Assembly (NCBI GenBank): GCA_902806175.1
Contig: CADCVQ010000147.1
Location: forward strand, 1-48,417
Source: an uncultured Solirubrobacteraceae bacterium
GTDB taxonomy: Bacteria; Actinomycetota; Thermoleophilia; Solirubrobacterales; Solirubrobacteraceae
DNA length: 48,417 bases
Reading direction: 5' to 3'
The position numbers were made by a program, and so were the translations under genes. Positions 4,294 to 15,511 of the stretch are shown piece by piece. Position 1 is the first letter of the stretch. Every line of letters starts with the position of its first letter. Under the pieces are notes generated by a model. That model made no database searches. It saw nothing but the letters and a program-made list of their open reading frames with translations, and had not been told where the DNA came from.

Positions 4294-4506
4294 ATGCCCG
4301 AGATGTCCGAGGTCCCGGAGAAGAGCGACAGCACCGAAGCGCTGATGTGCCTGTTTCCGGGTTGCGACAGTCCGGCGGTTCCGCCGCCCAACAAGACCGA
4401 CAACCCCAAGCGCCAGGGCCCGCCCCCGCGTTTTTGTGAGCGCGAGGACCACAACGCGGCGTCGGCGCACCTGGAGCGCCAGCGCCTGGAGAAGGAAGCC
4501 GGCTGA
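4294..4506 (+). CDS. Small cysteine/histidine protein, possible zinc finger
   Basis: 70 residues with a good ribosome-binding site (AAGAGGAGAG) eight bases before the ATG. The centre carries C..PGC, then a Pro/Lys-rich stretch, then FCEREDHNAASAHLERQR. Two Cys followed by Cys and His at this spacing resembles small zinc-binding or DNA-binding modules of actinobacteria, and the tail is basic and helical. It lies between moaC and the LysR gene and runs convergent to the latter. I cannot assign a function; the zinc idea is inference from residue spacing. Confidence 0.7.
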   Translation: MPEMSEVPEKSDSTEALMCLFPGCDSPAVPPPNKTDNPKRQGPPPRFCEREDHNAASAHLERQRLEKEAG

Positions 4507-5579: not shown

Positions 5580-6461
5580 TTGGCAATGCAGACCCCAGCG
5601 CCCTGCGACTACTCGCGGGCAACGAGCGTCGACGACGCCATAGCGCAGCTTCAAGCGCTAGGCGGCAACGCTCGAATTCTGGCGGGTGGTTACAGCCTCA
5701 TCCCAATGATGAAGCTGCGCCTCGCCAACCCCGGCCACGTCATCGACATCAACCCGATCGAGCCGGAGCTGAACTACATTCGCCAAGAGGGCAACGAGAT
5801 CCGGATCGGCGCGCTCACGCGTCACGTGAACATGCTCGAGTCCGATCTGCTCGCCCGTACGTTCCCGGACATCTTCCGCGAGGCCGAGGCCGTCCTCGCC
5901 GACCCCGTCGTCCGCAACCGCGGCACGATGGGCGGCTCGCTGTGCCAGTCCGACCCCGCCGAGGACCTCTCGGGCGTCGTCGTGGCCCTCAAGGGCAAGG
6001 CGGTCCTGCGCGGGCCGGGCGGCGCCGAGCGCGTCGTCGAGATGGACGAGTTCCACATCGGGCCGTACATGACTGCGGTCGGCCCCACGGAGATGCTGAT
6101 CGAGGTGCGCTTCCCGATCCACCCGGGCTTCGGCGGCGCGCACGAGAAGGTCGAGCGCCGCGCCGGTGACTTCGCGATCGTGGCGGCGTCGGCCGCGTTG
6201 AGCATCCAGGGCGGCACGATCCAGACGGCCGGCGTCGCGTGCAGCGCGGTCGGTCCGACGACGATGCACATCAAGCGCGCAGAAGAGGCGCTGGTCGGCA
6301 AGGCGCCGTCCGAGGAGCTGTTCCAGCAGGCCGGCCAGATGGCCTCGGCCGACTGCTCGCCCAACAGCGACGGCCGTGGGCCCGCTGACTACAAGCGCGC
6401 CGTCGCCGGCGTGCTGACACAACGCGCCCTCAGCCGCGCCGCGGCCACGGCCCTGCGCTAG
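5580..6461 (+). CDS. coxM: CO dehydrogenase medium (FAD) subunit CoxM
   Basis: 293 residues. It carries FAD in the CoxMSL hetero-hexamer and passes electrons from the CoxS iron-sulfur clusters to the acceptor. Visible FAD-binding motifs are AGGYS (35-39), close to the AGGHS of characterised CoxM, followed by LIPMMKLRLA, and TMGGS (116-120) inside RNRGTMGGSL. The TTG at 5580 lies 9 bases after an AGGAGAGGAG site and is preferred; the ATG at 5586 is the alternative. It is the first gene of a medium-small-large order typical of form I CO dehydrogenases, and coxS follows after 10 bases. Confidence 0.96.
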   Translation: MAMQTPAPCDYSRATSVDDAIAQLQALGGNARILAGGYSLIPMMKLRLANPGHVIDINPIEPELNYIRQEGNEIRIGALTRHVNMLESDLLARTFPDIFREAEAVLADPVVRNRGTMGGSLCQSDPAEDLSGVVVALKGKAVLRGPGGAERVVEMDEFHIGPYMTAVGPTEMLIEVRFPIHPGFGGAHEKVERRAGDFAIVAASAALSIQGGTIQTAGVACSAVGPTTMHIKRAEEALVGKAPSEELFQQAGQMASADCSPNSDGRGPADYKRAVAGVLTQRALSRAAATALR

Positions 6462-6471
6462 GAGGAGATAC

Positions 6472-6996
6472 ATGCTCGTATCCATCTCGATCAACGGTCA
6501 GGTGTACTCGCACGACGTCGAGCCGCGCCTGCTGCTGGTCCACTTCATCCGTGAGTACGCGGAGTTGCACGGCACCCACTGGGGCTGTGACACATCCAAC
6601 TGCGGCATCTGCATCGTCCTCATGGACGACCCGCAGAGCGACCAGCCGCCCTATCCCGTCAAGTCGTGCACGATGCTCGCCGCCATGGCACAGGGCTACG
6701 AGATCACGACGGTCGAGGGCATGGCCAAGCCAGACGGCACGCTGGACCCGATCCAGATGGGCTTCCACGAGATGCACGCACTTCAGTGCGGCTTCTGTAC
6801 CCCGGGCATGATGTCCACGGGGCGCTGGCTGATCGAACGACATCCGAACCCAACGCAGATGACCGACCACGAGATCCGCGACGGAATCTCCGGCAACCTG
6901 TGCCGCTGCACGGGCTACGACAACATCATCAAGGCGATTCGGTGGGCAGCCGCCTACATCGAAGAGCACCCCGAGTCCGCTAGGACAGCGAGGTAA
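6472..6996 (+). CDS. coxS: CO dehydrogenase small (2Fe-2S) subunit CoxS
   Basis: 174 residues with two [2Fe-2S] clusters. The N-terminal ferredoxin-like cluster is bound by C39, C44, C47 and C66 (CDTSNCGIC then C). The C-terminal helical cluster is bound by C106, C109, C144 and C146 (CGFCTPG then CRC). This is the complete ligand set for the xanthine-oxidase-family small subunit. An AGGAGGAG ribosome-binding site precedes the ATG. It relays electrons from the molybdenum-copper site in CoxL to FAD in CoxM. The gene lies between coxM and coxL with 5-10 base gaps. Confidence 0.97.
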
Positions 6997-7001
6997 CCCG
7001 C

Positions 7002-9437
7002 ATGGCAACTGTTGAGACAGGACCAGGACGGCATCCCGAGTGGTATGCCCACGCAACCGGTGACAAGTTCGGCAAGATAGCCGACGCGCCGATCGGCTTC
7101 GGCCACATGAAGCGCAAGGAGGACGCGCGCTTCATTCGCGGCCTCGGCGACTACATGGACGACGTCCGCCTTCCGGGCATGCTGCACGGCGCGATCCTGC
7201 GCTCGCCGTACGCCCACGCGAGGATCAACTCGATCGACACGTCGGCTGCGCTCGCGCATCCGAAGGTCGCCGCGGTGATCATCGCCAAGGATCTCGAGAC
7301 GCTCGGTCTGGCGTGGATGCCGACCATCTCCTACGACACGCAGGCCGTGCTCGCAGGCGACAAGGTCCGCTTCCACCTCCAGGAGGTGGCGTTCGTCATC
7401 GCGACCGACGCCTACGCGGCGCAGGACGCCCTGCAGCTCATCGACGTCGACTACGACGTGCTGCCGGCGATCGTCAACTGCCGCAAGGCGCTCGATCCCG
7501 ACGCCCCGCTGATTCGCGACGACAAGGTCGGTCAGACCGACAACCTCGCGAGCCCGCTGTGGGAGGCCGGCGACAAGGCCAACTGCGACCGCGTGTTCGC
7601 GGAGGCCGACGTCGTCGCCAAGCGGACGATCCTCGATCCTCGTTCGCACCCGTGCCCGATGGAGACATGCGGCATGGTCGCCGACATGAACCCGGCGACC
7701 GGTCAGCTGAACATCTACAACGGCAACCAGGCGCCGCACGCACACCGCACGGTGTACGCGCAGGTAGCGGGTCTGCCCGAGCAGAACATCCGCATCCTCT
7801 GCAACGACATCGGCGGCGGCTTTGGCAACAAGGTGCCGGTCTACCCGGGCTACGTCTGCGCGATCGCGGGTTCGATCGTCGCCGGCGCACCGGTGAAGTG
7901 GATCGAGGACCGCTCGGAGAACCTGGCCTCGACCGGGTTTGCTCGCGACTACCTGATGTACAGCGAGATGTGCTCCAAGGGCGGCAAGATCACGGGGCTG
8001 CGCGTCGACACGATCGCCGACCACGGCGCATTCGACTCGACCGCTCAGGCCACGAAGTTCCCGGCCGGCTTCTTCCACATCGTCACGGGGTCCTACGACC
8101 TGCAGGGCGCGCACTGCCAGGTCAAGGCCGTGTACACGAACAAGGCACCGGGCGGCGTCGCCTACCGCTGCTCCTTCCGCATCACCGAGGCCGTCTACCT
8201 CGTGGAGCGGATGGTCGACGCGCTGGCGATGGAGATGAACGTCGATCCGGTCGAGCTGCGCATGCGCAGCTTCATCCGCTCCGATCAGTTCCCGTACGAG
8301 ACGCAGACCGGTTGGGTCTACGACTCGGGTGACTACCACAAGGCCATGAAGCTCGCGATGGAGATCGCGGACTACGAGGGCCTGCGCAAGGAGCAGCAGG
8401 AGAAGCTCGCCAGGGGCGAGATGATGGGCATCGGCATCGCCTTCTTCACCGAAGGCGTCGGCGCCGGTCCGCGTCGCCACATGGACATCCTCGGCCTGGC
8501 GATGAACGACGGCGCCGAGCTGCGGGTCCACCCGTCCGGCAAGGCCGTCGTCTCGCTGTCCGCGCAGACGCAGGGCCAGGGGCATGAGACGACGTTCGCG
8601 CAGATCGTCGCCGAGGAGCTCGGCATCTCGCCGAACGAGATCATGGTCCGCCACGGCGACACCGACAAGACCCCGTACGGCCTCGGCACGTACGGCAGCC
8701 GGTCGACGCCGGTCTCCGGCGGCGCCGTCGCGGTCGTGTCGCGCAAGGTGCGCGACAAGGCTCGCCAGTTCGCGGCGCTCATGCTCGAGACGCGCGCAGA
8801 GGACCTCGCGTGGGAGAAGGGCCGCTGGTACGTCAAGGGCGACCCGGAGCGTGGCTCCACGATCGAGTCGATCGCCGAGTACGCCTACAGCGCCTCGAAC
8901 CTCCCCGAGGGGCTCGAGGGCGGCCTGGACGCCAACGCCGTGTACGACCCGCCCAACCTGACGTACCCCTTCGGGGCGTACATCGCGGTGGTCGACGTCG
9001 ACCCCGGCACCGGCAAGGTCCACATGCGTCGCTTCATCGCAGTCGACGACTGCGGCGTGCGGATCAACCCGATGGTCGTCGAGGGCCAGATCCACGGCGG
9101 TCTCGTCGAGGGCATCGGTCAGGCGCTCATGGAGATCATCTCGTTCGACGAACAGGGCAACTGCCTGAACGCGTCGTTCATGGATTACCTCCTGCCGACG
9201 GCGCTGGAGTGCCCGGAGCATGGCTTCGAGCTCGGCGAGACGGTCACGCCGTGCCCGCACCATCCGATCGGCGCCAAGGGCGTCGGCGAGAGCCCGTGCG
9301 TCGGGTCCCCGCCGGCCATCGCCAACGCGGTCGTCGACGCGATGTACCACGCCAAGGGCGTCAAGCACATGGACATGCCGTGCTTCCCCGCCCGCGTGTG
9401 GGCGGCGATGAACGGTCGCGAGCAGCCCCCGCAGTGA
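7002..9437 (+). CDS. coxL: Form I CO dehydrogenase large (Mo-Cu) subunit CoxL
   Basis: 811 residues, full length for CoxL. It oxidises CO to CO2 at a CuSMo centre carried on molybdopterin cytosine dinucleotide. The diagnostic form I active-site loop AYRCSFR is at 387-393, with C390 as the copper-ligating cysteine; form II enzymes have AYRGAGR. The GGGFGNK loop begins at G271, QGQGHE at 524-529, and the catalytic-base Glu falls at E763 in KGVGES. All catalytic motifs are intact, so I expect an active aerobic CO dehydrogenase. The stop overlaps the next start by GTGA. Confidence 0.98.
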   Translation: MATVETGPGRHPEWYAHATGDKFGKIADAPIGFGHMKRKEDARFIRGLGDYMDDVRLPGMLHGAILRSPYAHARINSIDTSAALAHPKVAAVIIAKDLETLGLAWMPTISYDTQAVLAGDKVRFHLQEVAFVIATDAYAAQDALQLIDVDYDVLPAIVNCRKALDPDAPLIRDDKVGQTDNLASPLWEAGDKANCDRVFAEADVVAKRTILDPRSHPCPMETCGMVADMNPATGQLNIYNGNQAPHAHRTVYAQVAGLPEQNIRILCNDIGGGFGNKVPVYPGYVCAIAGSIVAGAPVKWIEDRSENLASTGFARDYLMYSEMCSKGGKITGLRVDTIADHGAFDSTAQATKFPAGFFHIVTGSYDLQGAHCQVKAVYTNKAPGGVAYRCSFRITEAVYLVERMVDALAMEMNVDPVELRMRSFIRSDQFPYETQTGWVYDSGDYHKAMKLAMEIADYEGLRKEQQEKLARGEMMGIGIAFFTEGVGAGPRRHMDILGLAMNDGAELRVHPSGKAVVSLSAQTQGQGHETTFAQIVAEELGISPNEIMVRHGDTDKTPYGLGTYGSRSTPVSGGAVAVVSRKVRDKARQFAALMLETRAEDLAWEKGRWYVKGDPERGSTIESIAEYAYSASNLPEGLEGGLDANAVYDPPNLTYPFGAYIAVVDVDPGTGKVHMRRFIAVDDCGVRINPMVVEGQIHGGLVEGIGQALMEIISFDEQGNCLNASFMDYLLPTALECPEHGFELGETVTPCPHHPIGAKGVGESPCVGSPPAIANAVVDAMYHAKGVKHMDMPCFPARVWAAMNGREQPPQ

Positions 9438-10522
9438 GAAACGACGCGCTTGCGCGGCGAGCTGAAGAGCTCGCCGCGCAGGGCGCGGCCTTCGCGACCG
9501 CGACCGTCGTGCGCGCCCAGCGCCCGACGAGCGCGCACGCCGGAGACGTCGCGCTCATCACCAGCGATGGCAAGATCGAGGGCTTCGTCGGCGGCATCTG
9601 CGCGGAGCACAGCGTCAGGCTGTTCGCCTGGACGGCGATGAAGTCCGGCAAGCCGCTGCTTCTGCGCATCCTGCCGGAGGTGAGCGACGACATGAAGACC
9701 GGAACAGAAGAAGACGGCGCGGTGACGGTGGAGAACACGTGCCTGTCGGGCGGCGCGATCGAGATCTTCCTCGAGCCGACGCTACCGACCCCGCGCGTGA
9801 ACATCGTCGGCTCCAAGCCGATCGCCGCCGCGATCGAGCGGCTGGGGTCGGAGTTCGATCTCGACATCGCAGCGGTCGGCGACAACCCCGCGGAGATCCG
9901 CGAGGGCGACCTCGGCATCGTCGTGGCCGCTCACGGCAAGGGCGAGCTCGAGGCGATCCGCGCCGGCCTGGAGGCCGAGCTTCCATACGTCGGGCTCGTC
10001 GCGAGCCCCAAGCGCGGAGCCGCGCTCATCGAGGAGCTGCGCGAAGCCGGCGTTGCCGACGACCAACTCGAACGCGTCGACTGTCCGGCCGGCCTGGACA
10101 TCGGCGCGCAGACCCCGCCCGAGGTCGCGCTGACGATCCTCGGACGGCTCATCGAGACGCGCTACGGCGGCTCGTACACGCCGCCGCTGCGCTCGCCCAG
10201 CAGCGAGCCGCCCCCGCAGTTCGCGGTCGACCCGATCTGCGGGATGACCGTCACGATGGTGCCCGACACGCCCCAGCTCGAGCACGACGGCGAGACGATC
10301 TGGTTCTGTCGCGAAGCGTGCAAGACCGAGTACGCCGCAGGGCTGACGGGCGACGCGCCGGCCAAGCCCGCGACCGCGGTCGACCCCGTCTGTGGGATGA
10401 CCGTCCTGGCGACGCCGGACACCCCGCATCTCGAGCATGACGGCGAGACCGTCTACTTCTGCTGCGAGGACTGCAGGACGAAGTACCAGCAGGAGCACAT
10501 GGATGTCGTCGCCGCGGGCTGA
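9434..10522 (+). CDS. XdhC/CoxI-family maturation protein fused to two YHS domains
   Basis: 362 residues from the GTG at 9434, which overlaps the coxL stop by four bases. Residues about 1-100 match the XdhC/CoxI N-terminal domain (FATATVV, GFVGGICAEHSV, a later C.SGG), about 112-245 the XdhC Rossmann domain, and about 265-355 two YHS repeats beginning VDPICGM (C269) and VDPVCGM (C320), each with a downstream FC..C.T.Y pair. XdhC proteins load sulfurated molybdenum cofactor into apo-enzymes; YHS domains are cysteine modules found in metal-transport proteins. Its place directly after coxL argues for Mo/Cu-site assembly. A copper role for the YHS part is inference. Confidence 0.9.
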   Translation: MRNDALARRAEELAAQGAAFATATVVRAQRPTSAHAGDVALITSDGKIEGFVGGICAEHSVRLFAWTAMKSGKPLLLRILPEVSDDMKTGTEEDGAVTVENTCLSGGAIEIFLEPTLPTPRVNIVGSKPIAAAIERLGSEFDLDIAAVGDNPAEIREGDLGIVVAAHGKGELEAIRAGLEAELPYVGLVASPKRGAALIEELREAGVADDQLERVDCPAGLDIGAQTPPEVALTILGRLIETRYGGSYTPPLRSPSSEPPPQFAVDPICGMTVTMVPDTPQLEHDGETIWFCREACKTEYAAGLTGDAPAKPATAVDPVCGMTVLATPDTPHLEHDGETVYFCCEDCRTKYQQEHMDVVAAG

Positions 10523-11123
10523 GCCGTTCATCACCGGGCTCGTGCTCGGGGCGGGCGGATCCAGGCGCCTCGGACGGCCCAAGCAGCTGCTGCCCTACGG
10601 CGACCGTCCGCTGCTGGGCCACACGCTGGACGTCGCGCGCCGGTGCGGCTTTGACCAGCTCGTCGTCCCGCTCGGCGGCGCCGCGGACGAGGTCCGCGAG
10701 CGCGTGGATCTGTCCGGCGCCGACATCGTCGTCAACTACGACTATGGCGAGGGCTGCTCGTCGTCGATCGCCGCGGCGCTCGCGACGGTCGATCGGCGCT
10801 GCGAGGTCCTCGTGCTGATGCTCGGCGACCAACCCGGCGTGACGCCGGCGACCGTGCGCGACCTGCTCGCCGGGCGCGGGGACGCGGCGCTCGCCGTCTG
10901 CCGCTATGACGACGGGCGCGGGCACCCGCTGGCCTTCGAACGTCGTATGTTTTCCGAGCTCGCCGATCTGCACGGCGACAAAGGTGTATGGCGCCTGCTG
11001 GACGAGCGCGCCGATGAAGTCGTCGAGGTACGGATCGCGGGCAACGTGCCGCTCGACGTGGACACGCCCGACGACTATCAGGCCGTGCTCGCGGAAGCCG
11101 GCTTTACGGAGGTGACGGCATGA
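10503..11123 (+). CDS. MobA-like molybdenum cofactor nucleotidyltransferase
   Basis: 206 residues from the ATG at 10503, overlapping the XdhC-YHS gene by 20 bases. The N-terminal LGAGGSRRLGRPKQLLPYGDRPLL (15-38) is the nucleotide-binding signature of MobA/MocA-type NTP transferases, and D-Q-P in LGDQPGV is the metal-binding site. CoxL carries the cytosine dinucleotide form of the cofactor, so this is most likely the CTP:molybdopterin cytidylyltransferase (MocA-type). The CTP rather than GTP specificity is inferred from operon context. Confidence 0.88.
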   Translation: MSSPRAEPFITGLVLGAGGSRRLGRPKQLLPYGDRPLLGHTLDVARRCGFDQLVVPLGGAADEVRERVDLSGADIVVNYDYGEGCSSSIAAALATVDRRCEVLVLMLGDQPGVTPATVRDLLAGRGDAALAVCRYDDGRGHPLAFERRMFSELADLHGDKGVWRLLDERADEVVEVRIAGNVPLDVDTPDDYQAVLAEAGFTEVTA

Positions 11124-12040
11124 GCCGCCTGAAGCGCAGTGAAGAGCTCGAAGAGGAGATGCGGCGGATCATCCCGAGCGTGGAGAAGCTCGGCCAGCTG
11201 CTGGGAGACGTCGACTACCTCGCCGACGAGGGTCTTGCGACGTCCGCCTACCTGGCGCTGCGCCTGCCGCAGCCGCTGCTGCTCGAGGGCGAGGCCGGCG
11301 TCGGCAAGACCGAGCTCGCCAAGGCCATCGCGGAGGTGCTCGAGACCCCGCTGATCCGCCTGCAGTGCTACGAGGGCATCGACGCGTCCGAGGCGCTGTA
11401 CGAGTGGAACTATCCGCGCCAGCTGCTGAGCATCCGGATCGCGGACTCCAAGGGCGAGGATCTCAACGAGGAGGGCCTGTTCGGGCCCGACTACCTCATC
11501 CGCCGGCCGCTGCTGCGCGCCCTGGAGCACAAGGGACCGCGTCCTGCCGTCCTGCTGATCGACGAGCTCGACCGCGCCGACGACGACTTCGAGGCCTTCC
11601 TGCTCGAGCTGCTCGCCGAGGCGACCGTGACGATCCCGGAGATCGGCACGATCACCGCGACGCATCCGCCGATCGTGATCCTGACGTCCAACCGCACGCG
11701 TGACCTGCACGACGCCGTCAAGCGCCGCTGCCTGTACCAGTGGATCGACTACCCGACCCCGCAGCGCGAGGTCGACATCGTCCGCCGGCGCGTGAAGGGG
11801 GCCTCGGCGACGCTCGCCGTCCAGGTCGCCGACGCCGTCTCGCGCATGCGCGAGTCCGACATCCAGAAGCCTCCGGGCATCGCCGAGGCGATCGACTGGG
11901 TGGCCGCGCTGGACCTGCTCGGCGTGGAGCACCTGGACGTCGCGACCGCCGATCGCACGCTCGGCTCGGTGCTGAAGTACAGCGAAGACCAGGAGGTCGT
12001 TCGCTCGGCCGGCCTGGATCAGCTCGTCGAGAAGCGGTGA
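11120..12040 (+). CDS. coxD: MoxR-family AAA+ ATPase CoxD
   Basis: 306 residues, with ATGA overlap to the previous gene. Walker A GEAGVGKT is at 57-64, Walker B LLIDELDRAD near 141-150, and a sensor-1 Asn in ILTSNRTRDLHDAVKRRCLY. This is the MoxR subfamily that works with VWA proteins as a metal-site chaperone. In studied carboxidotrophs CoxD is needed for sulfuration of the CoxL molybdenum centre. The paired VWA gene coxE follows after 34 bases. Confidence 0.95.
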   Translation: MSRLKRSEELEEEMRRIIPSVEKLGQLLGDVDYLADEGLATSAYLALRLPQPLLLEGEAGVGKTELAKAIAEVLETPLIRLQCYEGIDASEALYEWNYPRQLLSIRIADSKGEDLNEEGLFGPDYLIRRPLLRALEHKGPRPAVLLIDELDRADDDFEAFLLELLAEATVTIPEIGTITATHPPIVILTSNRTRDLHDAVKRRCLYQWIDYPTPQREVDIVRRRVKGASATLAVQVADAVSRMRESDIQKPPGIAEAIDWVAALDLLGVEHLDVATADRTLGSVLKYSEDQEVVRSAGLDQLVEKR

Positions 12041-12074: not shown

Positions 12075-13505
12075 ATGGTCGAGAAGCAGGAGCACGGTGC
12101 CGAGCAGGACAACGGCGCCGTCCCGAACTTCGCGGTCGTCGACTTCGACGTCGACCTGCCCGGGCTGGCGAGCGCCTTCAGCCAGCGCCTGCACGAGGCG
12201 GGCGTGCCGGTGACGCCGTCGCAGACCGAGCAGTACACGCGCGCGCTGAAGCTCACCAAGCCCGTCTCGCGGCGGCGGCTGTACTGCACGACGCGCGCGA
12301 TCTTCGTCACCGGCTTTCAGCAGGTGGCGGCGTTCGACCGCGTCTTCGCGCAGGTCTTCGGCTCTCGCAAGCGGTCGGTCAACCCCGACGACTACGACGT
12401 CGAGCTCGAGGAAGCGCCCGTCGACCAGGTCGACAGCGAGACGCCCGAGGACATGGACGACCAGAACGTCATGGAGCGCGAGGGCGGCCAGGAAGCCATG
12501 AACATGAACGCCGGCGAGGGCGACGACGAGGAGGACGAGGACGACACCGAGGAGGAGCAGCTCGTCCCGATGCAGGAGGCCAGCGAGGAAGAGGCGCTCA
12601 GCCACAAGAACTTCCAGGCGCTCAACCACGAGGAGCTGGCGCTGCTGTACCGGCTCATGGTTCGCCTGCAGCTCGCCACGCCCGACCGCACCACGCGTCG
12701 CAAGAAGCGCGGTCGCCGCGGCGAGCACATGGACATGCGCCGCACGCTGCGCAAGAGCCTGCACACCGGCGGTGACCCGATCGTGCTGTCGCGCAAGCGC
12801 CGGCGCGTGCATCCGCGCCGGCTCGTGCTGCTGTGCGACATCTCGGGCTCAATGGAGCCCTACGCGCGCGCCTACCTGCAGTTCCTGCACGCGGCCCGCG
12901 CGACCGGGCCCTACGCCGAGGCATTCGTCTTCGCGACCCGGCTGACGCGGCTGACGCGTCAGCTCGCCGGGCGCAACCCGCAGCGGGCGATCCGGCGCGC
13001 GACGGAGGCGGCGCCGGACTGGTCCAGCGGCACGCGGATCGGTGACGCGCTGAAGGAGTTCAACGACCGCTACGGGCGGCGCGGGATGGCGCGCGGGTCG
13101 GTCGTCGTGATCCTCTCCGACGGCTGGGAGCGCGGCGATCCGGCGCTCGTCGGGCGCGAGATGCAGCGCCTCTCACGGCTGGCCTACCGGATCGTGTGGG
13201 TCAACCCGCGCGTGGCGGCCAAGGGCTTCTCGCCGAAGGCGGGCGGCCTCGTCGCGGCGCTGCCGCACTGCGACGCGCTCGTCAGCGGTCACACGCTCAA
13301 GTCGCTCGAGGAGGTCGCAGACGCGATCGCCGCCGAGCGCGACTACGACCCGCTGCTCGCGAGCTGGCGGGTGCCGAGCATCGACGACGAGCCCGAGGAA
13401 GACAGCTGGGGCGTCGCCGGGACGACCGAGCGGCACGTCGCGATGCCCAGCGGATACGGCGCGTACAAGGGCAATACGTCGCCCGGTTCCAACTCGGGAC
13501 TATGA
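12075..13505 (+). CDS. coxE: VWA-domain protein CoxE
   Basis: 476 residues. The N-terminal part has the CoxE-type helical region, then an extremely acidic Asp/Glu stretch (about 115-180), a basic segment, and a C-terminal VWA domain with the MIDAS motif DISGS starting at D255 plus SSGTRIGDAL and LSDGWERGD. CoxE is the partner of CoxD and in studied systems is linked to copper insertion into the CuSMo site. The ATG at 12075 has only a weak ribosome-binding site (GGGACGGA). It is the last classical cox gene before a 153-base gap. Confidence 0.94.
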   Translation: MVEKQEHGAEQDNGAVPNFAVVDFDVDLPGLASAFSQRLHEAGVPVTPSQTEQYTRALKLTKPVSRRRLYCTTRAIFVTGFQQVAAFDRVFAQVFGSRKRSVNPDDYDVELEEAPVDQVDSETPEDMDDQNVMEREGGQEAMNMNAGEGDDEEDEDDTEEEQLVPMQEASEEEALSHKNFQALNHEELALLYRLMVRLQLATPDRTTRRKKRGRRGEHMDMRRTLRKSLHTGGDPIVLSRKRRRVHPRRLVLLCDISGSMEPYARAYLQFLHAARATGPYAEAFVFATRLTRLTRQLAGRNPQRAIRRATEAAPDWSSGTRIGDALKEFNDRYGRRGMARGSVVVILSDGWERGDPALVGREMQRLSRLAYRIVWVNPRVAAKGFSPKAGGLVAALPHCDALVSGHTLKSLEEVADAIAAERDYDPLLASWRVPSIDDEPEEDSWGVAGTTERHVAMPSGYGAYKGNTSPGSNSGL

Positions 13506-13658: not shown

Positions 13659-14108
13659 ATGGCTAGCGTGTACCGCGCTATCTACCTGCGCGTTCATCCG
13701 ACCGGGAAGTGCACGCTCAGCCTGAGCTGCGACGGCGGCGGGCAGGATGCGCAGCTGGCCCAGGTGGTCGGCGACGAGCTCGGCATGCCCTCGGGTGACG
13801 TCAAGGTCGTCCCGCAGGATCTCGACCGCTTCGGCGGCGGACACGGGTACGTCACGCAGTCCAGCCCCGGTCTGCAGGACGCGACGCGCAAGACGTGCGC
13901 GAAGATCAAGGACAAGGCGCGCTACCTCGCCGGCGGCATGCTCGGCACGTCACCGCAGTCGCTGTCGTGGAACGGCGACAACTTCGGCGGCAAGCGCATC
14001 GAGGAGATCGCGCTGTACGCCCACGGCGGCGCGATCGAGCTTCCGCTCGGCCCCGACGGTCGCCAGCTCGAGGGTTCGCTGGACGCGCAGACGACCTTCC
14101 GCAACTGA
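13659..14108 (+). CDS. Stand-alone CoxL-domain-like mini-protein
   Basis: 149 residues with its own ribosome-binding site (GAGGGGAG). Residues 10-104 align with CoxL 507-604 of this same operon: LRVHPTGK against LRVHPSGK, SLS, AQVV against AQIV, DELG against EELG, D.D, KDKAR against RDKAR, and W104 against W604, with one two-residue gap. This is part of the cofactor-binding region of CoxL, but the QGQGHE and GTYGSRS cofactor loops are replaced by DGGGQDA and GGHGYVTQ, and the AYRCSFR loop lies outside it. It is therefore not a CO dehydrogenase. The frame is intact with normal codon use. Possible roles are scaffold, dimer partner or cofactor decoy in CoxL assembly; function unknown. Confidence 0.85.
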   Translation: MASVYRAIYLRVHPTGKCTLSLSCDGGGQDAQLAQVVGDELGMPSGDVKVVPQDLDRFGGGHGYVTQSSPGLQDATRKTCAKIKDKARYLAGGMLGTSPQSLSWNGDNFGGKRIEEIALYAHGGAIELPLGPDGRQLEGSLDAQTTFRN

Positions 14109-14136: not shown

Positions 14137-14163
14137 CCACCGGCCTGCTCTGCAGGCCGGTGG
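14137..14163 (+). terminator. GC hairpin at the end of the cox operon
   Basis: A perfect 12-bp stem (14137-14148 with 14152-14163) closes a 3-base loop 28 bases after the mini-protein stop. No T-tract follows. It also lies just beyond the end of the small minus-strand gene, so it could act in both directions. Confidence 0.75.
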
Positions 14164-14177
14164 TCGTTGGAGGCGGG

Positions 14178-14366: not shown

Positions 14367-14891
14367 TCAGGCGAGCTTGCCCTCGACCACGACGTTCACC
14401 TCGTCGTTGACCTTCAGTGCGCCGAACAGGGCCGAGTACGGCTTGATGCCCCAGTCGCTCTGCTTGAAGGCCGCGTTGCCCGTGACGGTGCCCCCGGTCT
14501 CGCTGAGGTCAAAGCTGATCGGCTTGGACTTGCCGCCCACCTCGAGGTCTCCACTGACCTTGAGGCCGTCGCCTGCCGTCTCGACGCTCGAAGACGTGAA
14601 GGTGATGTCCTTCTTCTTGAGCACGTCCTTGTCGATCGTCTTGTGGATGTCGTCGATGTCGTCGTCCTTGAGGGCCTGCATGCCACCCTTGCCCTCGCGC
14701 ACGCGCAGCGACGTCGAGTCCGCGCTGAGTGAAAGGCTTGAACTGTCACCAACCTCGAGCGTCGCCTCCCAGGACGTGACGTCGATGATGAGGTCGTGTC
14801 CTGCCTTGGCCGCAGCGCCGCTGCGTCCCGTCTCGACATGAAGAGACGCGTTGTCGGGTCCGAGCTTGTATGTCCCTGCCTGAATCGCCAT
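14367..14891 (-). CDS. YceI-family lipocalin-like protein
   Basis: 174 residues. The GTYKLGPDNASLHVETG start, the alternating beta-strand pattern, the ITFTSSSVE strand and the terminal SDWGIKPYSALFGALKVNDEVNVVVEGKL segment are typical of YceI proteins, which form an eight-stranded barrel that binds long isoprenoids. There is no signal peptide, so it appears cytoplasmic. It is divergent from coxG across about 195 bases. A link to quinone handling next to CoxG is possible but only suggested by position and family. Confidence 0.88.
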   Translation of the reverse strand: MAIQAGTYKLGPDNASLHVETGRSGAAAKAGHDLIIDVTSWEATLEVGDSSSLSLSADSTSLRVREGKGGMQALKDDDIDDIHKTIDKDVLKKKDITFTSSSVETAGDGLKVSGDLEVGGKSKPISFDLSETGGTVTGNAAFKQSDWGIKPYSALFGALKVNDEVNVVVEGKLA

Positions 14892-15085
14892 CGGCGGATT
14901 CTATGAAGACACGCTCATGTTCGGCGGCTCCCTACGTGCCCCACGCCGAGCGGGCGGACCGGCTGCGGACCTGAAATACTCACCCGCTGCTCAGCGCCAT
15001 GCTGCCCCGGCGGCGGCGGCACCGCGCGCGAAGGAACGTTTGGGACGAAGCAGCCGTCATACCTGGACAAAGGAGGAGGCGCAGC

Positions 15086-15511
15086 ATGCCGACGTTGAAC
15101 AACACGTTCCCCGTAACCAACCCGGATCACGCCTGGAGCATCATCAGCGACCTCAACAAGCTTGTGCCGTGTGTTCCCGGTGGCAAGGTCGTATCGGCGG
15201 ACAGCGCCGAGTCTGTCAAGGCCGAGATCGACGTGAAGATGGGGTCGATGGGCATGAAGTTCACGGGGCCGGTCACGATCGAGTCGGCCGACGCCGGCAG
15301 CAAGACGGTAAAGATCAAGGCCAACACCAAAGAGGCCGGCGGACAGAGCAACGCCTCCGGCGACGTCACGATCGCTGTCGGCGGCGGCGAGGGCAAGATC
15401 GACGCGACCGCAAACGTCAGCGGCAAGGCCGCATCGATGGGCGAGGGCACCATCGTTGCCGTGCTCGAGCAGCTCATGAAGTCCTTCGCGGCGAACGTCG
15501 GGAAGGCGTAG
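15086..15511 (+). CDS. coxG: CoxG-type SRPBCC protein
   Basis: 141 residues from the ATG at 15086 with a strong AAAGGAGGAGG site. It shows the CoxG/SRPBCC pattern: NTFPVTNP..AWSIISDLNKLVPCVPGG, then VKAEIDVKMGSMGMKFTG, and a terminal helix VLEQLMKSFAANVGKA. CoxG proteins partner CO dehydrogenase in electron delivery to membrane quinone and usually carry a C-terminal extension for membrane binding. That tail is absent here; the protein ends with the SRPBCC helix. A hairpin follows the stop. Confidence 0.9.
   Translation: MPTLNNTFPVTNPDHAWSIISDLNKLVPCVPGGKVVSADSAESVKAEIDVKMGSMGMKFTGPVTIESADAGSKTVKIKANTKEAGGQSNASGDVTIAVGGGEGKIDATANVSGKAASMGEGTIVAVLEQLMKSFAANVGKA

Follow-up and report, generated by a model that had tools for sequence, protein, structure and literature searches.

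The window, a stretch of 48,417 nucleotides from an uncultured Solirubrobacteraceae bacterium (contig CADCVQ010000147.1), encodes a molybdenum-containing CO dehydrogenase (Mo-CODH) operon on its forward strand. The genes coxM and coxS (5580..6996, placed by locus comparison) are followed by a form I coxL with the motif AYRCSFR (7002..9437, recognized by BLASTP, TIGR02416 and Pfam). An XdhC-type gene of uncertain start (9437..10522), coxD for a MoxR-type AAA+ ATPase (11120..12040, assigned by position and sequence) and coxE for a VWA protein of 476 aa (12075..13505, placed by locus comparison) come next. The XdhC-type protein ends in two YHS-like repeats (CGM...FC..C) recognized by eye, and a role as a copper-handling chaperone is possible. 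A small forward-strand gene (13659..14108), which begins about 150 nt behind coxE and does not overlap it translationally, encodes a CoxL-derived protein of 149 aa, hereafter the mini-protein, which we analyzed by homology, fold prediction, a tree and column comparison. A scan for sigma-70 promoters in the gap between coxE and the mini-protein gene found none. On the other side, a YceI-like gene identified by locus comparison is inverted (14367..14891, reverse strand). A perfect 12-bp hairpin between the two genes (14138..14164, z -2.5 for the stretch) has no T run and is possibly the shared transcript end of this convergent pair. The gene coxG (15083..15511, forward strand, start codon uncertain; Pfam and locus comparison) and two XdhC-type genes follow in operon direction. 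An earlier reading made from the sequence alone (the sequence-only reading) had the mini-protein gene closing the operon. The gene does sit after coxE, but the inverted YceI-like gene, coxG and the two XdhC-type genes lie further 3'.

The mini-protein is homologous to the large subunit of the enzyme encoded beside it. It shares 39% identity with the CoxL of its own operon over 148 aligned columns (BLASTP, E 3e-21), and the matched part covers CoxL residues 507-648 (about 8520-8945). The Pfam domain MoCoBD_2 (PF20256) is matched at 2e-11, with 44.4 bits against a gathering threshold of 27, as a partial domain spanning profile positions 51-173 of 283. The NCBIfam model TIGR02416 is matched at 1.2e-16, with a score far below the cut-off for a full CoxL (60 versus 991 bits), and the sequence of CoxL from Mycobacterium smegmatis (PDB 8uem) at 1.7e-17. 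The agreement of BLASTP with the Pfam and NCBIfam models and with 8uem identifies the similarity as homology, and by this measure the mini-protein belongs with the Mo-CODH large subunit CoxL. The sequence-only reading had aligned residues 10-104 with CoxL 507-604; the homology holds and runs about 45 residues further, to CoxL 648. At 149 aa the mini-protein is not a full-length CoxL. The motifs AYxCSFR and GVGES lie outside the copied segment, and the motif regions of the active-site Cys (AYRCSFR) and Glu (GVGES) are missing. The open reading frame starts with ATG, preceded by GAGGGGAG and with no further in-frame start 5', and the ribosome-binding site and intact frame first noticed in the window recur across copies.

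The predicted structure agrees with this homology. An AlphaFold2 model of the mini-protein, built on an alignment of 30 sequences, has a mean pLDDT of 88.5 and a pTM of 0.85. The top PDB matches in Foldseek are solved Mo-CODHs (8uem_A, E 4e-12, TM 0.78). VIA-align superposed 140 residues of the model on 8uem_A 488-641 (rmsd 2.1 A, Z 9.3), and matches to further members of the xanthine oxidase family reach Z 12.7. The structure check proposed for the mini-protein alone hence returned the corresponding domain of solved Mo-CODH CoxL. The scaffold common to the mini-protein and CoxL comprises RVHPTGK, ELGxP, a long helix and LPxGxEGxLDAQ. The loops of the QGQGHE and GTYGSRS type, which presumably hold molybdopterin cytosine dinucleotide in CoxL, are absent from the mini-protein. 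Column comparison showed the loops QGQGHETTFAQI (with QGQGHETTF) and GLGTYGSRSTP to be near-invariant in 62 CoxL domains, whereas the 34 mini-proteins mostly carry xDGxE and FGxGHG(Y/F)NTxPS at the former cofactor loops. The loop replacement first recognized in the window is thus family-wide. Among the mini-proteins, G28, R57, F58, G59 and G61 are invariant and H62 occurs in 97%. Two divergent members look transitional. The mini-protein of genome G050 (L086, 7827-8258) keeps SQGQE, with GNSFN at the position of GHGYN, and the CoxL-like one of G114 (L095) keeps SSGQE.

Two functional readings start from these loops. Residues conserved specifically in mini-proteins (G28, E30, R57, G61-H62-G63, Y/F64 and N65) are concentrated where the two cofactor loops used to be, and a Cys/His microprotein described below co-occurs. 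The mini-protein might accordingly bind or carry the molybdenum cofactor, copper or a sulfur ligand at the remodelled loops and hand it over to CoxL. We consider such a carrier very unlikely, given that the CoxL loop residues are gone, only part of the cofactor cradle is present and no metal motif is recognizable in the mini-protein, while in the genus of the window the site itself drifts, with D for E30 and V for N65. Single-domain copies without catalytic residues that compete with their parent are also a known regulatory principle. With its cofactor loops replaced, the mini-protein could be an inhibitory decoy of the CoxL domain, which would titrate CoxE or XdhC or block CoxL assembly and switch the enzyme off. 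An inhibitor of this kind is distinctly unlikely in our assessment. The replacement loops are themselves conserved rather than drifting freely, the gene always lies within the biosynthetic operon, and no regulatory gene is tied to it.

Stand-alone mini-proteins were found in 40 Thermoleophilia genomes in total, and a 41st (G408) holds the first 13 residues at a contig end. Within the window's order, 32 of 232 genomes encode a stand-alone relative, told from full CoxL matches by score and reading-frame length, in frames of 151-217 codons and at 45-96% identity. Of 399 genomes of the class, 27 were mini-positive by a profile of 30 stand-alone sequences (A1), and they cover several families inside and outside the order. 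Applied to a sample of 396 Actinomycetota genomes, the profile found no mini-protein outside the class, and the matches there were full CoxL. Candidate members outside the phylum, sought among plasmids, were rejected as well. The annotated plasmid matches proved to be large subunits of the XDH family or CoxL, and the two unannotated top matches (Nonomuraea, Cupriavidus) lie inside frames of 864-888 aa. A tree of 97 domain sequences places the 34 mini-proteins in a single clade (SH-aLRT 99), nested among form I CoxL with no supported exact sister. CoxL sequences from operons with a mini-protein likewise group together (94). On average, divergence among the mini-proteins is 2.6 times that of the matching CoxL domains. 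Their dN/dS within the genus ranges from 0.07 to 0.36 (NG86), similar to coxE, coxL, coxG and the YceI-like gene, and 40 columns are invariant in the alignment of 30 mini-proteins. The mini-protein has a single origin and is under purifying selection.

Coverage of only part of a CoxL Pfam domain could also be expected from a decaying, functionless fragment of a duplicated coxL. The intact frame and ribosome-binding site, the invariant columns, the dN/dS values and the constant position across several families of the class contradict a pseudogene or debris, and we assign this explanation a negligible probability. The sequence-only reading had likewise argued against decay, and had named absence from all related cox operons together with relaxed selection as evidence that would count against its proposal. 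Related operons do encode the protein, under the selection just described. A split catalytic subunit was also discarded, as every contig that permits a check carries an intact coxL.

The position of the gene was compared across 34 loci (33 and the window), with some contigs beginning inside the operon. The gene order is coxM-coxS-coxL-(XdhC)-(MobA-like)-coxD-coxE-mini, mostly continued by YceI-coxG. The survey of cox operons suggested by the sequence-only reading found the mini-protein gene following coxE throughout the related operons of one CoxL clade. The gene adjoins coxE in all checkable loci, with a gap of 48-258 nt in 32 loci and 481 nt in L095 (L067 was left out of this measurement). 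Such a position by coxD and coxE in the cox operons of relatives is shared with maturation factors of the CoxD/E/F group. The adjacency survives rearrangements. In G050, coxD is inverted and YceI-coxG relocated, and the mini-protein gene still follows coxE after 48 nt; in G069 it lies on the opposite strand and still adjoins coxE. A CoxL at least 74% identical to that of the window accompanies a mini-protein wherever the contig reaches far enough. In seven complete operons of the sister CoxL clade (L101, L102, L109, L110, L112, L113 and L118; CoxL 66-71% identical), coxE is followed by coxG, with neither a mini-protein nor a YceI-like gene. Nine loci (L072, L076, L078, L079, L082-L085 and L119) contain a second, lone form I CoxL 3' of coxG, which is 63-67% identical to the window's CoxL, has AYACSFR where the motif was found and lacks adjoining coxM and coxS.

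The YceI-like gene beside coxG deserves separate consideration. YceI-type proteins bind polyisoprenoids or quinones, and the YceI-like protein may therefore share the role of CoxG. An alternative reading takes the mini-protein as an extra structural subunit of the mature enzyme in these bacteria, which would sit on the CoxL dimer through the same surfaces as the domain has within CoxL and link the enzyme to CoxG or YceI for contact with quinones or the membrane. The YceI-like gene and coxG follow the mini-protein gene in most loci, and YceI is missing from mini-less operons. CoxG has been implicated in membrane recruitment (PMC4240915, PMC6794299). Distances among mini-proteins also track those among CoxL domains, with a Mantel r of 0.91 that shared descent can likewise produce and at least partly explains. 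We consider an extra subunit rather unlikely, as YceI and coxG moved in G050 while the mini-protein gene stayed at coxE. Such a subunit would also leave two further features of these operons unexplained, a tail on CoxE and the Cys/His microprotein.

Every mini-linked CoxE has a conserved C-terminal tail (WASATPVPGSSVAMPSGYGPSRGNTTPGW), which in the window lies at about 13407-13502 on the forward strand (..DSWGVAGTTERHVAMPSGYGAYKGNTSPGSNSGL). Its consensus is EPWASATPVPGSSVAMPSGYGPSRGNTTPGW, preceded by an acidic linker. Tails of the form W.SATPVPGSSVAMPSGYGPSRGNTTPGW were seen in the window, L067-L099 and L104, and in mini-containing operons only. The tail is present in 34 of 34 mini-protein loci (shortened or divergent in L079, L095 and L067) and in none of the nine complete CoxE of mini-less operons, an association with a Fisher p of 2e-9 uncorrected for relatedness. 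An origin of the tail as a copied CoxL segment was rejected, as the best local alignment (ATPVPGSSVAMPS to STPVSGGAVAVVS) was barely above shuffles (p 0.09). CoxE and the mini-protein share one frame in the window, and a read-through construct joined the tail to the mini-protein across the stop codons. AlphaFold2 predicted the tail of this construct to be disordered (pLDDT about 42) and undocked, and direct contact between tail and mini-protein is therefore not predicted. The junk linker and the shallow alignment make this a weak negative. The tail may therefore bind CoxL or CoxD instead, or the docking idea may be wrong.

The Cys/His microprotein was traced by profile search and locus comparison. 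Its members have about 60 aa and the pattern CIYPGC...FC...HNA, or C-x4-C-x~18-C-x4-H-N-A in general terms. Of the 34 loci, 28 encode it between coxE and the mini-protein (e.g., around 8927-9155 in L068). In the five genomes of the window's genus, it lies instead between moaC and a LysR-type gene 5' of coxM; the window's copy has 70 aa (MCLFPGC...FCEREDHNA, 4294..4506, forward strand). The profile matches 28 of the 399 class genomes, including 26 of the 27 mini-positive ones and missing only G050. The other two are G408, with its mini-protein at the contig end, and G117, whose weaker match has the motif at the head of a longer open frame on a contig without a cox gene. A Pfam search with the microprotein returned no family. 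The microprotein probably binds metal. Mini-proteins of the window's genus contain three cysteines (C18, C24 and C80 in the window; two in G069) that are mostly missing elsewhere, and this is the genus in which the microprotein is gone from its usual site before the mini-protein.

Neighbors, rearrangements and the CoxE tail all point to CoxE, and the mini-protein is thus most simply a CoxL mimic acting in the CoxE step. We suggest, with a probability of about one half, that it is a stand-alone, non-catalytic copy of a CoxL domain that serves as an accessory in Mo-CODH maturation together with CoxE and hence the CoxD AAA+ motor. In Oligotropha, copper incorporation requires CoxE and CoxF and sulfuration requires CoxD, and coxE mutants make a Cu-free enzyme (PMC4240915). 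Metal insertion, by NorQ/NorD for example, or remodeling of a target enzyme is the work of MoxR/VWA pairs, and within the CODH cluster of mycobacteria the MoxR ATPase binds the VWA protein (PMC9976466, PMC12657314). The location at coxE is well supported; the mechanism is our inference. The copied piece is the first half of MoCoBD_2, and the mimic may be recognized by the same partners that handle CoxL. The mini-protein could position CoxE/CoxD on CoxL, or it could substitute for the CoxL subdomain as long as sulfur and copper are being inserted into the opened Mo site. The microprotein might be its metal-handling companion. Our confidence in any mechanism more detailed than a CoxE-linked accessory is much lower. 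Among the roles named in the sequence-only reading, action on maturation proteins fits the CoxE adjacency and the CoxE tail better than a dimer cap does.

We propose only tentatively that the CoxL-domain mimic, a CoxE docking tail and a metal-binding Cys/His microprotein form a clade-specific module, in which a duplicated piece of the target would have joined the MoxR/VWA machine that installs the Cu-S-Mo site. Several observations speak against the maturation reading. No contact between tail and mini-protein is predicted, the genes do not overlap translationally, and the G069 copy lies on the opposite strand. YceI and coxG are equally close to the mini-protein gene, and to our knowledge neither is a maturation gene. 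Co-occurrence in one clade is also partly common descent because one gain can carry several linked genes.

Comparison with known systems sets the mini-protein apart from each. It shares homology with residues 507-648 and the predicted fold with the MoCoBD_2 domain of CoxL (PF20256, TIGR02416), but stands alone at 149 aa with replaced loops and is encoded beside an intact coxL. CoxD and CoxE, its proposed partners, are encoded with it and resemble other pairs of MoxR-AAA+ and VWA proteins (NorQ/NorD, CbbQ/CbbO), from which the mini-linked CoxE differs by its additional C-terminal tail. We know of no companion derived from the target enzyme in the described pairs. Moco chaperones of the XdhC/CoxF type likewise assist enzymes of the xanthine oxidase family and are encoded in the operon. 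They showed no relation to the mini-protein in sequence or fold, and an XdhC-type protein has its own gene in the window and in most loci. Foldseek and VIA also matched the mini-protein to a 330-residue chain of nicotinate dehydrogenase (3hrd_B), which we take to be a separately encoded piece of the Mo subunit. That chain is half of a split catalytic subunit, whereas the mini-protein has a complete parent CoxL. LpdD, a small cofactor-binding UbiD chaperone, offers a precedent for a small protein encoded beside an enzyme gene and aiding cofactor loading, but it is neither homologous to the mini-protein nor derived from the enzyme it serves (PMC10865409).

The mini-protein, the CoxE tail and the Cys/His microprotein are a clade-specific accessory set of the Mo-CODH operon. 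We found no description of any of the three in the open-access papers searched, in keeping with the sequence-only reading, which knew of no such protein in described CO dehydrogenase systems. The association of the tail and the microprotein with the mini-protein is new here. Aerobic CO dehydrogenase takes about 250 teragrams of CO out of the atmosphere each year (PMC6794299), and missing maturation factors of Mo-CODH have been called for (PMC4240915). A conserved three-part set tied to CoxE in one clade provides defined candidates for assembly of the CuSMoO2 site, and sister operons without the mini-protein provide a natural comparison. If true, the maturation reading would make the mini-protein a clear case of an enzyme domain reused in that enzyme's own assembly apparatus.
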